Shown in pieces: positions 16,348-22,246 of a DNA stretch of 64,000 nucleotides (the first letter of the stretch is position 1; the number at the start of each line of letters is the position of its first letter). The notes below the pieces were generated by a model that was not told where the DNA came from, ran no database searches, and saw only the letters and a list, made by a program, of their open reading frames with translations. This DNA comes from Beijerinckiaceae bacterium (GTDB lineage: Bacteria > Pseudomonadota > Alphaproteobacteria > Rhizobiales > Beijerinckiaceae). The DNA lies in contig CANGBC010000003.1 of the NCBI GenBank assembly GCA_947452005.1, forward strand, positions 124,001 to 188,000, read 5' to 3'. Position numbers and translations under genes: made by a program.

Positions 16348-17925
16348 TTAGGCCGCGGCTTTGACCTCTGCCGGCAAGCGGATCAGATAATCAAAAGCTG
16401 ACAGACCTGCCTTTGCGCCCTCACCCAAAGCAATGATGATTTGCTTGTAGGGTGTGGTCGTTGCATCGCCGCCTGCAAATACGCCAGGAAGCGAGGTGGC
16501 GCCATGCGCATCCACTTCGATCTCGCCACGCGGAGACAGCGCCAACACGCCCTTGAGCCATTCCGTGTTGGGCACAAGACCGATCTGCACGAAGATCCCT
16601 TCGAGCTCGAGGGTCTTGGCCTCGCCCGTGCCGCGATCTGTATAGGCCAGCGCACTCACCTTGACGCCATCGCCCAGAACTTCCGTTGTCTGAGCATTGG
16701 TGACGATGGACACATTGGAAAGCGAGCGCAACTTGTTTTGCAACACGGCATCCGCGCGCAGCTTCGTGTCCCATTCGATCAAGGTGACATGGGCCACGAG
16801 ACCGGCCAGATCGATGGCTGCTTCCACACCGGAATTGCCGCCACCAATCACCGCCACGCGCTTGCCCTTGAACAAAGGCCCGTCGCAATGCGGGCAATAG
16901 GCAACGCCCTTGTTGCGATATTGCTCTTCACCCGGCACGTTCATCTGGCGCCAGCGTGCACCTGTGGAAAGGATGAGCGTCTTGGCCTTGAGCGAAGCGC
17001 CATTGGCGAGTTTGATCTCGTGATAGCCACCCGCAACAGAGGCCGGCACGAGGGCAGTTGCTGTTTGCAGGCCCATAATGTCGACTTCATATTCGCGCAC
17101 ATGTTGTTCGAGCTGGGCGGCGAGCTTCGGGCCTTCCGTGTGTTGCACGGAGATGAAGTTTTCAATGCCCATCGTATCGAGCACCTGACCGCCAAAGCGC
17201 TCAGCCACCAGACCCGTGCGAATGCCCTTGCGTGCCGTATAAACAGCTGCAGCCGCACCAGCCGGGCCACCGCCCACGATCAACACTTCGAAGGCTTCTT
17301 TGTGCTTGATGGCCTCAGCTGCACGATCCGCTGCACCCGTGTCGAGCTTGGCCAGAATCTGCTCAAGCGACATGCGGCCCTGCGCGAAGGGTTCGCCATT
17401 CAGATAGACTGACGGCACAGCCATGATCTGGCGATCATCGACTTCCTTCTGGTTGAGCGCGCCATCGATTGCGACGTGCTTGATGTTCGCATTCAGCGCG
17501 CCCATCAGGTTCAGCGCCTGCACAACGTCAGGGCAATTCTGGCACGACAGCGAGAAATAGGTTTCGAACACGAAGGTGCCCTGCAGATTGCGGATCTGCT
17601 CCAGCACAGCTTCGTCTTCCTTGGGCGGATGACCGCCGACCTGCAGCACGGCCAGAATGAGCGAGTTGAACTCATGGCCCATCGGGAGGCCAGCGAAGGC
17701 GACGCCAATGTCTGTGCCAGCGCGGTTGATCGCGAAGGAGGGCTTGCGTGCATCTGTGCCATCGAGGCGCAGAGAAATTTTGTCGGATAGCGGCGCGATG
17801 TCTTCGAGCAGCTCCTTCATCTCCTGCGACTTGGCGCTGTCGTCGAGCGAGGCGACCAGTTCAAGCGGCATTTGAATGCGCTCAAAATAGCTCTGCAACT
17901 GGCCCTTCAGATTGGCGTCTAGCAT
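16348..17925 (-). CDS. ahpF: Alkyl hydroperoxide reductase subunit F
   Basis: This 525-residue flavoprotein recycles AhpC with NADH. The N-terminal double-thioredoxin domain carries its CxxC at about residues 128-131 ([10 protein letters not shown]). The FAD domain starts at [20 protein letters not shown], the second active-site CxxC is in [12 protein letters not shown], and the NAD-binding site is [39 protein letters not shown] closes the FAD site. All redox cysteines are present and the length is normal. It lies downstream of ahpC on the same strand, separated by a strong stem-loop. Confidence 0.97.
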
Positions 17926-17961
17926 GGGAGGCTCCGAAAGTTCACGAGAGATCCTGGGGGA

Positions 17962-17988
17962 ACCCCGGGCTTAAACAAAGCCCGGGGT
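17962..17988 (-). terminator. Strong stem-loop between ahpC and ahpF
   Basis: ACCCCGGGCTT and AAGCCCGGGGT form a perfect 11-base stem with a five-base loop. No T tract follows on either strand, so it is more likely an mRNA-processing or attenuation structure that sets the ahpC:ahpF ratio than a complete terminator. Confidence 0.65.
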
Positions 17989-18038
17989 GCGCACAGCCAT
18001 GCTCAGGGGCAGAGCATGACCGCACTTAACGTGTCAGA

Positions 18039-18602
18039 TTAGATCTTGCCGACGAGGTCGAGCGACGGGGCGAGAGTCTTCTCGCCTTCCTGCCACTTGG
18101 CCGGGCAGACTTCACCCGGATGCGACGCGACATACTGAGCAGCCTTGATCTTGCGCAGCAGTTCGGTCGCCGAGCGGCCAACGCCACCAGCGGTGATTTC
18201 AACGATCTGCACCTTGCCCTGCGGATCGATCACGAATGTGCCGCGATCAGCCAGGCCCGCTTCTTCGATCAGCACGTCGAAATTGCGCGAGATGTTGGTC
18301 GTCGGGTCACCAACCATCGTGTACTGGATCTTCTTGATGGCGGGCGAGGAATCGTGCCAGGCCTTGTGAGCGAAATGCGTGTCGGTGGAGACCGAGTAGA
18401 TCTCGACGCCGAGCTTCTGGAATTCAGCGTAATTGTCGGCGAGGTCTTCGAGCTCGGTCGGGCAGACGAAGGTGAAGTCGGCGGGGTAGAAGAACACAAC
18501 GGACCACTTGCCGTGCAGCGACTGGTCGGTCACTTCGATGAACTTGCCGCCCTTGAGGGCCTGGGCTTTGAAGGGCTTAATCTGTGAACCGATCAGCGAC
18601 AT
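18039..18602 (-). CDS. ahpC: Alkyl hydroperoxide reductase subunit C (typical 2-Cys peroxiredoxin)
   Basis: This 187-residue peroxidase reduces hydrogen peroxide and organic hydroperoxides. The peroxidatic Cys is at about residue 47 in [16 protein letters not shown] and the resolving Cys at about 166 in [13 protein letters not shown]. The length and the start [20 protein letters not shown] are those of the AhpC branch. It is transcribed away from oxyR, and an OxyR-type box lies between them, so peroxide induction is expected. Codon use is cleaner than in the surrounding genes, as expected for a highly expressed protein. Confidence 0.97.
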
Positions 18603-18702
18603 AGGTTGCTCCTGCTTGATAGTCTGGGCCGGCAGAAAGCCGCCCTTGAAAGTGACTTGAGCTGTTTAGGTCGGTTTTACATCCAATAAAAGTGAATTAT
18701 TT

Positions 18703-18728
18703 CGATTGTTTTGATCGACTTTTTCGAT
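18703..18728. promoter_or_regulatory. Probable OxyR-binding box between ahpC and oxyR
   Basis: CGAT-N7-ATCG-N7-CGAT reproduces the spacing of the OxyR consensus (four tetramers separated by seven bases). Three of the four tetramers are present as CGAT/ATCG instead of ATAG/CTAT; the fourth position reads CGCC. It ends 12 bases before the oxyR ATG. Confidence 0.6.
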
Positions 18729-18740
18729 TACTGAGCGCCC

Positions 18741-19646
18741 ATGAAAATTCTCCCCACCCTGCGCCAGCTACGCTTTCTCGTGTCCCTTGTTGACCATTGC
18801 CACTTCGGCAAGGCGGCGGAGGCCTGCCTGATTGGCCAGTCCACGCTCTCGGCTGGCATTCAGGAGCTGGAGCAGATCTTGGGCGTTCGTCTGTTGGAAC
18901 GCACCAAGCGCTCGGTAGTGCCAACGCCCATTGGGCGGGAGATTGCCGAGCGGGCCCGCGCCCTGTTGGGCGATGCGGAAGATCTGGTCGATGTGGCGCT
19001 GGCCGCCCAAGACCCGCTGGGTGGCGTCTTGCATCTGGGGCTGATCCCGACCATCGGCCCCTTCATTCTGCCGCGCATCATGGCGCCTTTGCGCGACACA
19101 CTGCCGAAGATGAAATTCTATTTGCGGGAAGAACAAACTGCCATGCTGCTGTCGCGCCTCGAAGATGGCGACATTGATGCAGCGATCATCGCCCTGCCCT
19201 ATGCGGGCGATTTTGAGTCAATCGAAATTGCGCAAGACCGGTTCTGGGTGGTCTATCCCAAAGGTCATCGCTTCACCGGGCGCGATGATATTCTGCCCAG
19301 CGAGATTGCGGTCGAAGATCTGCTGCTGCTCGAAGACGGGCACTGCCTGCGTGATCATGCGCTGGCGGCTTGCGCACTGGAGACAGCACGCCGCAACAAT
19401 GCTTTTCAGGGCACGAGTTTGCACACGCTGGTGCAAATGGTGGGCAGCGGGCTTGGCATTACACTGCTCCCGCAAATGGCGGTCGAAGGTGGCTTGCTGC
19501 GTGGACTGGATGTCGGCTGCACGCCGCTCACTGGCGACCAGAATTTCCGCCGCATTGGTTTGGCCTTCAGGCCAACATCGGGACGCCGCGCAACCTTTGA
19601 ACATCTGGCCAAGGAAATGACCTTCAGGCTGGCGCCTGTTTTGTAA
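18741..19646 (+). CDS. oxyR: Hydrogen-peroxide sensing LysR-type regulator OxyR
   Basis: This 301-residue LysR regulator has the HTH block HFGKAAEACLIGQSTLSAGI near residues 21-40. The redox pair expected of OxyR is at Cys202 and Cys211 in EDGHCLRDHALAAC, with the same nine-residue offset as Cys199/Cys208 in E. coli OxyR. Position next to ahpC on the opposite strand supports the call. On peroxide exposure the disulfide form should activate ahpC and repress or tune oxyR from the shared intergenic box. Confidence 0.95.
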   Translation: MKILPTLRQLRFLVSLVDHCHFGKAAEACLIGQSTLSAGIQELEQILGVRLLERTKRSVVPTPIGREIAERARALLGDAEDLVDVALAAQDPLGGVLHLGLIPTIGPFILPRIMAPLRDTLPKMKFYLREEQTAMLLSRLEDGDIDAAIIALPYAGDFESIEIAQDRFWVVYPKGHRFTGRDDILPSEIAVEDLLLLEDGHCLRDHALAACALETARRNNAFQGTSLHTLVQMVGSGLGITLLPQMAVEGGLLRGLDVGCTPLTGDQNFRRIGLAFRPTSGRRATFEHLAKEMTFRLAPVL

Positions 19647-19942: not shown

Positions 19943-20096
19943 CAGCTAAGCCCCGTGGTTTGCGATTCACACGTGTCGCAAGCCCAAGCCTAGGGCGGCG
20001 GAATTACCCTTTGCAAGATGAAACTTGCTTGAAAACAGCATGTTAGCAGCAGGCTTTCGCGGCTGCTGACAGCGCGGGAAAAGGCTTGCTATTAAA

Positions 20097-20120
20097 TTAG
20101 AAATATCTAAATTAGATATT
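20097..20120 (+). promoter_or_regulatory. AT-rich palindromic operator abutting the arsR-type start codon
   Basis: AATATCTAA-A-TTAGATATT is a perfect nine-base inverted repeat around a single base (20102-20120). It is overlapped on the left by TTAGA-AATA-TCTAA (20097-20110). The ATG of the repressor gene follows at once, leaving no Shine-Dalgarno site. A repressor bound here would block its own operon, and translation may be leaderless. Confidence 0.75.
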
Positions 20121-20465
20121 ATGAATATAGAGAAACTCCTCCCCAAGGCCGAAAAGGCCGAAGCCTTTCTGAAGGCGCTCGCCAACAAGCATCGCTTGAT
20201 GGTGCTGTGTGAACTGCACCAAGGCGAACGCTCGGTTGGCACATTGATGGATGCTGTGGGCCTGAGCCAATCAGCGCTCTCACAGCATCTGGCCAAATTA
20301 CGCGAGGATGGCCTCGTGGTGACGCGGCGTGATGCGCAGACCATCTATTACGCACTCGCCAATGATGACGCTTCGCGCATCATGGCTGTGCTCTACGACC
20401 TGTTCTGCGCTGACAAACCAGCGCAGCCTCTCCTCACATCAGCAGCGAAAGGAAAAGCCAGATGA
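20121..20465 (+). CDS. ArsR-family repressor, BigR/SqrR-like persulfide sensor
   Basis: This 114-residue winged-helix protein has an ArsR HTH around residues 38-60 (VGTLMDAVGLSQSALSQHLA) and a wing at GLVVTRRDAQTIYYAL. Its only two cysteines are Cys30 (MVLCELH) and Cys96 (DLFCADKP), exactly 66 residues apart. BigR (Cys42/Cys108) and SqrR (Cys41/Cys107) have the same spacing for sensing sulfide through a polysulfide bridge. Metal-sensor ArsR motifs (CxCxxC) are absent. It is the first gene of an operon with two YeeE/YedE proteins, which is the usual BigR target class. The start codon sits directly on the operator palindrome. Confidence 0.88.
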   Translation: MNIEKLLPKAEKAEAFLKALANKHRLMVLCELHQGERSVGTLMDAVGLSQSALSQHLAKLREDGLVVTRRDAQTIYYALANDDASRIMAVLYDLFCADKPAQPLLTSAAKGKAR

Positions 20466-21016
20466 GCATGGCAACGATGGAACGTGCGGGTGCGCATGTC
20501 AGCACATCCCGCTTGGACTGGACACCCTATCTCGCAGGCGCCGGCATTGGCATTCTGAGCTGGATTGCCTTTGCTATCGCCAAAGACCCAATTGGCGTGA
20601 CCACCGCCTATGGTCGCTTGGCAGGCGAAGTCGCGATTCCCCTCTTGGGCGCAGAAACCGTTGCGACGAACACCTATTGGAAAGCCGCACCCTTCGCAAT
20701 TGATTACGGCGTGCTGTTTCTGGTCGGCATCATGCTCGGGGCTTTTGTGTCGGCTATCGTATCGGGCACATTTAAAATCGAGCTCGTGCCGGACATTTGG
20801 AAAGCTGAAATCGGCACCTCTGTCTGGAAGCGCTTTGCTTATGCCTTTTTCGGCGGCGTGATCATCATGTATGGCGCGCGCTTAGCGGGTGGTTGCACCA
20901 GCGGCCATGGCATTTCAGGCGGGTTGCAACTGGCCGTCTCGAGCTGGCTCTTTCTCGCGGTGATGTTTGCCACAGGCCTTGTTGCTTCTGCTGTCCTCTT
21001 TCGCAAAAAAATCTGA
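20462..21016 (+). CDS. YeeE/YedE family sulfur transport subunit A
   Basis: This 184-residue membrane protein has about five hydrophobic segments and the family signature GARLAGGCTSGHGISGGLQL near residues 139-158, which includes the conserved Cys thought to bind thiosulfate or persulfide sulfur during transport in the YeeE/TsuA family. The gene overlaps the repressor stop (ATGA-type overlap at 20462-20465), so repressor and transporter are co-translated. Together with the next gene it makes up one full-length YeeE-like channel in two halves, as in PmpA/PmpB pairs. Confidence 0.9.
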   Translation: MSMATMERAGAHVSTSRLDWTPYLAGAGIGILSWIAFAIAKDPIGVTTAYGRLAGEVAIPLLGAETVATNTYWKAAPFAIDYGVLFLVGIMLGAFVSAIVSGTFKIELVPDIWKAEIGTSVWKRFAYAFFGGVIIMYGARLAGGCTSGHGISGGLQLAVSSWLFLAVMFATGLVASAVLFRKKI

Positions 21017-21027
21017 AGGAGTTTCTC

Positions 21028-21576
21028 ATGTCTGACTTTTTTGCTCCCGGCAGTGCAGTGCTTGCCCTTCTGATCGGTGCGGCTTTCGGGGCGCTCCTGC
21101 ATCGTGGCCGCGTCACCAGCTGCAATGTCATCCAAAACCAGTTCCGTTTGAAAGATTACACGGTGCTCAAAGTTATGCTGACGGCCATCATCATTGGCGG
21201 TGTCGGTGTGATGTTTCTGGCTGATGCCAACCTCGCCAAATATGCGGTGAAAGACACAAACCTGCTCGGTGTGGCACTGGGTGCGGCCATCTTTGGTGTC
21301 GGCATGGTCATCTATGGCTATTGCCCCGGCACAGGCCTGGCCGCCATTGCCACAGGCAGCGTGCATGCACTGGTGGGCGCACTGGGCATGATCGCGGGCG
21401 GCATCCTCTTCGCCTTGTCCTTTGACTGGGTGAAGGCCAACATTTTGACAGTCGGCGCCTATGGCAAGATCCGCCTGCCCGACATCACGGGGATTTCCTC
21501 TCCCGTCTGGTTTGCAGGCCTCACCCTTGTGGCCATCGTGTTTTTTGTCTGGGCAGAGCGCCAGCAAAACCGCTAA
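21028..21576 (+). CDS. YeeE/YedE family sulfur transport subunit B
   Basis: This is a 182-residue membrane protein. The ATG at 21028 follows AAGGAG at ideal spacing, so the track start at 20893 inside the previous gene is rejected. Conserved cysteine blocks are LLHRGRVTSCNVIQNQF near residue 30 and VIYGYCPGTGLAAIATGS near 95. It pairs with the preceding protein to form a sulfur-compound channel. The substrate is probably thiosulfate, sulfide or persulfide; the redox-sulfur repressor upstream supports this but does not choose among them. Confidence 0.9.
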   Translation: MSDFFAPGSAVLALLIGAAFGALLHRGRVTSCNVIQNQFRLKDYTVLKVMLTAIIIGGVGVMFLADANLAKYAVKDTNLLGVALGAAIFGVGMVIYGYCPGTGLAAIATGSVHALVGALGMIAGGILFALSFDWVKANILTVGAYGKIRLPDITGISSPVWFAGLTLVAIVFFVWAERQQNR

Positions 21577-21598
21577 ACTCTCCCCCAACGAGAACAGC

Positions 21599-21622
21599 AA
21601 CGTCGGCCTCGTGGCCGGCGTT
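21599..21622 (+). terminator. Stem-loop after the YeeE/YedE operon
   Basis: AACGTCGGCC and GGCCGGCGTT pair with one G-T wobble around a TCGT loop, followed by only a short T run. It lies between the YeeE subunit B stop and the methyltransferase start and is probably a weak terminator or attenuator. Confidence 0.6.
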
Positions 21623-21640
21623 TCCATTTGGGGGGACGAC

Positions 21641-22246
21641 ATGAGCGAACACGCGCGCTGGCAAGGCCGCTATGCGGTGCCCGATTATATTTTCGGCGAA
21701 GAACCCAACGCCTTTCTCGCAGCCCAAAAACATCTCCTGCCCAAGAGTGGCAAAGCTTTGGCTGTTGCCGATGGCGAGGCGCGCAATGGCGTTTGGCTCG
21801 CCCAGCAGGGACTGGATGTCACCTCCATCGATTTCTCATCCAATGCGCAGGACAAAGCCCGCGCGCTCGCCAAAAAGCGCGGCGTCAACATCACGCTTGA
21901 ATGCGTGGATGTGCATGCGTGGCCCTACCCCGAAAATACATTCGATGTGGTGGTGGAGGTTTTCACGCAATTCTCAACGCCCGCAGAGCGCGAGCTCAAA
22001 TGGGATGGCATGATCCGCACGCTGAAGCCCGGCGGGCTTTTGCTGCTCGAAGGCTACACACAAAAACAGCTCGAATATAAAACAGGCGGACCGAAAGAGC
22101 TGGAGCGCCTGTATACGCGCGACATGCTCGAAAAAGGCTTCGCCAAGCTCTCGCGCTTTGAGATCAAGGAATATGATACGCATATGTCGGAAGGTGCGGG
22201 ACACGCTGGCATGGCAGCCGTGATTGATCTCATCGGCACCAAGTGA
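21641..22246 (+). CDS. Class I SAM-dependent methyltransferase (TehB-like)
   Basis: This is a 201-residue cytoplasmic methyltransferase. The start at 21641 follows GGGGGGA; the track start lies in the YeeE gene. Motif I is KALAVADGEARNGVWLAQQG followed by TSIDFSSNAQDKARAL, a variant of the TehB DLGCGNGRNS pattern. DVVVEVFTQFSTP and MIRTLKPGGLLLLEGY are motifs II and III. TehB-type enzymes methylate tellurite, selenite or thiols, so volatile methylation of a sulfur or selenium compound would fit the neighbouring sulfur operon. That link is inference. Confidence 0.85.
   Translation: MSEHARWQGRYAVPDYIFGEEPNAFLAAQKHLLPKSGKALAVADGEARNGVWLAQQGLDVTSIDFSSNAQDKARALAKKRGVNITLECVDVHAWPYPENTFDVVVEVFTQFSTPAERELKWDGMIRTLKPGGLLLLEGYTQKQLEYKTGGPKELERLYTRDMLEKGFAKLSRFEIKEYDTHMSEGAGHAGMAAVIDLIGTK

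Follow-up and report, generated by a model that had tools for sequence, protein, structure and literature searches.

A predicted leaderless, operator-overlapped arsR promoter ahead of a sulfur-transporter pair in a NolR-related Rhizobiales branch

Described systems and gene content of the locus

In the BigR operons of Xylella, Agrobacterium, and Acinetobacter, a two-cysteine ArsR repressor heads or stands beside a yeeE-yedE pair, and a sulfur dioxygenase is included; in A. baumannii, the genes yeeE-yedE-pdo2 are under BigR (PMC7315123). Cupriavidus pinatubonensis has an ArsR gene beside the split yedE1-yedE2 pair, whose import of zero-valent sulfur was shown (PMC10812762) and whose halves have one essential cysteine each (C104 and C101). 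The same paper gives no regulation or promoter layout, and its likeness to the locus described here is one of gene arrangement. In Hyphomicrobium denitrificans, the YeeE-type transporter SoxT1B signals to the two-cysteine ArsR repressor SoxR (PMC11582611); the genes concerned are those of sulfur oxidation, and SoxR is closest to SqrR (PMC10451225). HlyU of Vibrio, an activator of a distant promoter, is converted by persulfides to a tetrasulfide and then leaves the DNA, a release brought about by persulfide alone, and it does not react with H2O2 (PMC10509353). NolR of rhizobia has lost both cysteines, and an AGGAG ribosome site is present in its relatives from Agrobacterium and Rhizobium.

The window, a 64,000-nt stretch of a Beijerinckiaceae genome (2.03 Mb, 58% complete), contains the following genes:

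20121..20465, + strand: arsR, encoding a two-cysteine (C30, C96) ArsR-family repressor of the NolR/HlyU branch (PDB sequence matches, Pfam HTH_5, tree)
20462..21016, + strand: yedE1-like half-transporter (Sulf_transp; PF04143, 9e-23, profile positions 171-308)
21028..21576, + strand: yedE2-like half-transporter (Sulf_transp; PF04143, 5e-20, profile positions 1-154; YeeE/TsuA 6leo, 1e-5)

The translated arsR product consists of 114 aa with C30 and C96, 66 residues apart, as its only cysteines, in agreement with an earlier note on this DNA. The arsR stop codon and the next ATG overlap as ATGA (20462-20465). That arsR heads paired YeeE/YedE channels was also stated there and was borne out by the PF04143 matches of both downstream products, two adjacent half-size Sulf_transp proteins of the YedE1E2 kind that match opposite halves of the profile. 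The motifs GGCTSGHG and GYCPGTG occur in them, as read from the window translations alone. Such a pair is an already known and ordinary partner of this type of regulator (PMC7315123, PMC10812762, and locus L112, whose bigR operon also contains a yeeE-yedE pair). No sulfur dioxygenase gene (DUF442/ETHE1-type) is present in the arsR unit, and none was found in the 58% complete source genome. The missing dioxygenase of bigR operons, to which the earlier note had drawn attention, thus holds for the unit, but the transporter pair is ordinary with or without that gene.

The order arsR-yedE1-yedE2 is kept in near relatives with 83-92% repressor identity, those named being uncultured Beijerinckiaceae, Rhizobiales, or Hyphomicrobiales. 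Directly upstream, at 16348-19646, the minus strand carries genes for an AhpF-like protein and AhpC, accompanied by a LysR-type gene resembling oxyR; the sulfur unit is adjoined by a peroxide-defence cluster (ahpF-like, ahpC, and likely oxyR).

Relationship and probable signal of the repressor

A midpoint-rooted tree of 135 rows and 93 columns, many forks of which are unresolved, placed the window protein in a 26-row Rhizobiales clade (support 96/87). This clade is sister to the one with NolR (96/89), HlyU follows next, and BigR and SqrR stand across the midpoint root (92/87). The recognition helix SQSALSQHL is identical in the window protein, NolR, and HlyU, whereas those of BigR and SqrR read GQPTLSQQL and RQAAVSQQL. 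Against the BigR equivalog profile (NCBIfam NF040642), the window protein scored 90.3 bits, 65 short of the 155-bit cut-off. Identity as BigR or SqrR was rejected on this cut-off, the tree position, and the helix. The likeness to BigR and SqrR drawn in the earlier note stood for the 66-residue dithiol layout and failed for the family. From its sequence, the window protein is classified as a two-cysteine ArsR repressor of the NolR/HlyU branch, distinct from BigR and SqrR.

The resemblance to HlyU comprises an end-to-end alignment, the helix SQSALSQHLA, and the cysteine positions, C30 and C96 occupying those of HlyU, BigR, and SqrR. The 66-residue spacing is also present in A. baumannii BigR (C34/C100; PMC7315123), H. 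denitrificans SoxR (C50/C116), and X. fastidiosa BigR (C42/C108). The window protein thus has the cysteine pair of the persulfide-sensing ArsR proteins (SSN cluster 4 of PMC10509353). Both cysteines are retained in 117 of the 135 tree rows. Because of the HlyU chemistry and the shared spacing, persulfide sensing would be the best guess for the window protein, by homology. The lack of both cysteines in NolR, its sister group, is a point against this mechanism.

The neighbourhoods of the clade vary. Farther members adjoin YgaP-type membrane proteins, rhodanese, or an SQR-like flavoprotein, and some adjoin a BLH domain and a beta-lactamase-fold protein. At L144-L147, L158, and L159, one or two genes for small membrane proteins of the YgaP type (PF11127) come after the clade arsR, as in E. 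coli ygaVP. Many farther arsR genes are faced by a divergent RND efflux operon. Predicted leaderless members at L009, L013, L035, L036, L051, and L060 face such an operon (membrane-fusion and RND protein), and the very short intergenic region there suggests that one operator may serve both directions.

The RND efflux operons indicate that the inducer could be another thiol-reactive compound. A repressor that senses a different thiol oxidant, an electrophile, or a metal(loid) instead of persulfides, with the sulfur transporters as incidental neighbours, would fit these operons and the likely oxyR, ahpC, and ahpF genes adjoining the unit. This is considered unlikely, since C30 and C96 lie at the positions used by HlyU, which is inert to H2O2 (PMC10509353), the CxC metal motif is absent from the window protein, and sulfur genes recur around the clade.

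Promoter, start codon, and operator

The elements predicted or found upstream of arsR are as follows:

20086..20091, + strand: -35 box TTGCTA, from sequence and clade comparison (clade consensus TTGACA)
20096..20100, + strand: upstream operator half-site ATTAG, conserved, with its partner CTAAA 6 bp farther on (dyad centred at -17.5 from the ATG)
20102..20120, + strand: perfect 19-bp palindrome AATATCTAAATTAGATATT with nine perfect arm pairs, its last base adjoining the ATG
20107-20115, + strand: palindrome core CTAAATTAG, conserved in relatives, unlike the outer arms
20108..20113, + strand: -10 box TAAATT, its end 7 nt short of the ATG; transcription is predicted to begin at 20121 or a base beside it

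The window sequence has no alternative in-frame ATG, GTG, or TTG between the preceding stop and 20121. The ATG at 20121 was taken as the true start because V. vulnificus HlyU aligns with the start of the arsR product from its own Met1; most arsR orthologues have the same start position. The anti-Shine-Dalgarno duplex energy of the 20 nt upstream of arsR was +0.1 kcal/mol versus -4.9 to -9.3 kcal/mol for the next four genes, so that the earlier claim of no ribosome site before arsR was confirmed; across the arsR clade, the values ranged from -2.7 to +1.4 kcal/mol.

The comparison of upstream DNA covered 31 distinct arsR clade members. The commonest promoter consists of TTGACA, 17 nt, TAAWTT, 7 nt (often AGCAAGT), and ATG. 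A gap of exactly 7 nt separates the -10 box of the best-scoring promoter from the ATG in 25 of the 31 members (1.1% in shuffles), and one of 5-8 nt in 28 (4.7% in shuffled upstream DNA), the 31 promoters sharing ancestry and hence not being independent draws in this comparison. Mean pairwise identity was 0.58 from -36 to -8 and 0.50 from -7 to -1, and it fell to about the chance level (0.26) from -100 to -51, conservation ending sharply at -36. With a gap of 7 nt, the usual transcript start would be the A of the ATG or a base beside it. The window arsR has a -10 box 5-8 nt before its start codon and no Shine-Dalgarno sequence, the layout taken here as leaderless. The leaderless mRNA that the earlier note had put forward as a possibility is thus very likely, its 5' end being predicted at the AUG or a base beside it, with strong comparative support from the 7-nt gap in 25 of 31 clade promoters that lack a Shine-Dalgarno sequence. 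The window's own promoter is weaker than the clade form (TTGCTA, 16 nt, TAAATT), and these weak boxes 16 nt apart count against the preferred explanation.

Within the tree set, the promoter layout was observed in 22 of 25 window-clade genes and in 3 of 24 genes of the clade with NolR; it was found in none of 19 genes on the BigR/SqrR side, none of 10 HlyU/gamma genes, and none of 35 in two further groups. The strict rule counted 0/9 Bradyrhizobium-type relatives, owing to the TATATA that stands as their -10-like box; on visual inspection, most of them have TTGACT, 17 nt, TATATA, 7 nt, and ATG. Bradyrhizobium-type loci, among them L094 and L099, have another palindrome, (G)CGTATATACG(C), in the -10 region beside a ATATTCGAATAT-like sequence just upstream of the arsR start, which suggests a changed operator half-site. 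Searched as a fixed DNA pattern, the promoter block matched in only 4 of 398 order-level genomes; the pattern was overly strict, as in most relatives at least one of the fixed bases is different. In related bacteria, only a minority of mRNAs are leaderless, for example 7% in Methylorubrum extorquens (PMC9320726), so a leaderless arsR would be unusual yet precedented. In the literature searched, which gave partial coverage, no account of such a regulator being encoded by a leaderless gene was found.

Alternatively, the arsR mRNA could carry a leader transcribed from a promoter farther upstream and be translated without a Shine-Dalgarno sequence, aided by an unstructured, AT-rich stretch of RNA at the AUG; the block resembling a -35/-10 pair would then be an operator only. 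The window boxes are indeed weak, and a missing Shine-Dalgarno sequence by itself is no proof of a leaderless mRNA. The block, however, has a -35 box, a 16-18 nt spacing, and a -10 box whose distance from the ATG is a constant 7 nt in 25 of 31 promoters, and its conservation ends sharply at -36, which makes a leadered mRNA quite improbable. The reading of arsR as a genuine BigR or SqrR orthologue whose dioxygenase gene was lost is very hard to credit despite the identical cysteine spacing and the yeeE-yedE pairs of bigR operons (L112; PMC7315123), given the profile score, the tree position, the recognition helix, and a promoter layout found in 0/19 BigR/SqrR-side genes.

A perfect 19-base palindrome reaching the base before the ATG, as reported earlier, is present with its nine arm pairs (AATATCTAAATTAGATATT at 20102-20120). 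Perfect palindromes with 9-base arms number three in the window versus about one in shuffles, and the chance of one within the local AT-rich 50 bp is 0.5%; by itself, the palindrome is no remarkable signal for the whole window and a modest one locally. The promoter/operator block owes its significance to its conservation in relatives and not to the palindrome by itself. The full 19-mer is perfect only in the window genome, relatives keeping 0 to 8 of its 9 pairs and sharing ATTAG-N6-CTAAWTTAG across the spacer and the -10 box. Two overlapping best dyads were recognized in relatives, one centred at -17.5 (ATTAG-N6-CTAAW) and the other at -10 (CTAAWTTAG), the former scoring slightly higher. Pairing at both centres only slightly exceeds the column-independent expectation, so covariation does not choose between them; this small excess is also a point against the mechanism. 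The 19-bp palindrome as the whole conserved operator was rejected, since its outer arms vary and the -17.5 dyad scores slightly higher. What stood of the earlier reading of the palindrome as the operator is a predicted operator on arsR's own promoter, of which the 19-mer is only the local form.

A dimer at either dyad centre would cover the spacer and the -10 box and would exclude polymerase. No second operator copy with up to two mismatches was found in the 58% complete source genome, and with a single copy, regulation is probably local. The footprinted HlyU site TAATTCAGACTAAATTA includes CTAAATTA (PMC4330345), a sequence common to the window operator and the HlyU site.

Extent of the unit, proposed mechanism, and significance

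Two features lie downstream of the transporter genes:

21599..21622, + strand: terminator-like GC-rich hairpin with a short T run, from its fold and relatives; 3' end of the unit
21641..22246, + strand: class I SAM methyltransferase (Pfam; Slr1183 2kw5, 7e-34), a neighbour outside the unit

Relatives conserve the hairpin, their changes being compensatory or of the G-U type. At L178 and L179, from two same-genus genomes, the order is usg, methyltransferase, and MFS, with no arsR-yedE1E2 in between; these empty sites lack window positions ~20053-21631, and similarity to the window resumes at 21632-21641. Since the flanks are intact at the empty sites, the unit comes and goes as a block from promoter to hairpin, and the hairpin and the empty sites together mark its ends. 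The empty sites could reflect either insertion in the window genome or loss in the L178 and L179 genomes; one of the latter (G504) has an arsR-yedE1E2 unit on another contig (L143). An imperfect inverted repeat, TGTTAGCAGC...GCTGCTGACA, occupies 20040-20075 upstream of the unit, and L178 and L179 have a similar sequence in the interval from usg to the methyltransferase gene.

The TehB-like methyltransferase gene reported in the earlier note is present, but its product matched TehB only marginally (21.6 bits versus a cut-off of 20.4) and Methyltransf_25 at 9e-15, its closest solved structure by sequence being Slr1183 (2kw5), and the gene lies beyond the hairpin. Membership of the operon was unsupported, as the hairpin intervenes and the gene stays where the unit is absent; it is more likely a neighbour than a regulatory target. 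Relatives of this gene are present in 41 of 51 same-genus genomes, frequently beside rhodanese, SQR-like, YgaP-type, or YedE genes (L165, L167, L173, L181, L182, L184-L186, L188-L190, and L198). A role as a thiol or sulfide methyltransferase is possible for its product.

A leaderless, autorepressed, persulfide-responsive arsR-yedE1-yedE2 operon is considered the probable mechanism as a whole, and the rhodanese, SQR-like flavoprotein, BLH-domain, and YgaP-type neighbours of the clade lend it support. A sigma-70-type promoter, its -10 box ending 7 nt short of the ATG, would drive the self-contained operon, and the mRNA would begin at or next to the AUG. The reduced repressor would bind ATTAG-N6-CTAAATTAG over the spacer and the -10 box and keep polymerase off its own promoter. 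By analogy with homologues, a rise in persulfides or polysulfides would lead to a C30-C96 sulfur bridge and bring the dimer off the DNA, after which the repressor and both half-transporters would be made. As judged from YedE1E2 and YeeE, the half-transporters may import zero-valent sulfur or thiosulfate, and transcription would mostly end at the hairpin ahead of the methyltransferase gene.

A bolder and more doubtful proposal, offered tentatively, is that an obligately leaderless promoter overlapped by the operator is retained throughout the Rhizobiales clade of two-cysteine, NolR-related sulfur sensors, the sensor level being set through leaderless translation and autorepression. If true, this would be a coupled transcription-translation sulfur switch absent from BigR, SqrR, and HlyU.

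The sensor and the sulfur importers themselves are of known kinds; what is new is that a separate branch of likely persulfide sensors, related to NolR, has a conserved, putatively leaderless promoter. The predicted layout, in which promoter, operator, and start codon of a conserved leaderless regulatory gene fall within ~36 bp, is conserved across many related soil bacteria. The predicted sulfur-responsive unit is compact and is gained or lost as a block between related genomes. The locus marks a separate Rhizobiales branch of likely persulfide sensors beside NolR, and because NolR is a nodulation regulator without the sensing cysteines and stands next to it, this branch bears on the origin of NolR.
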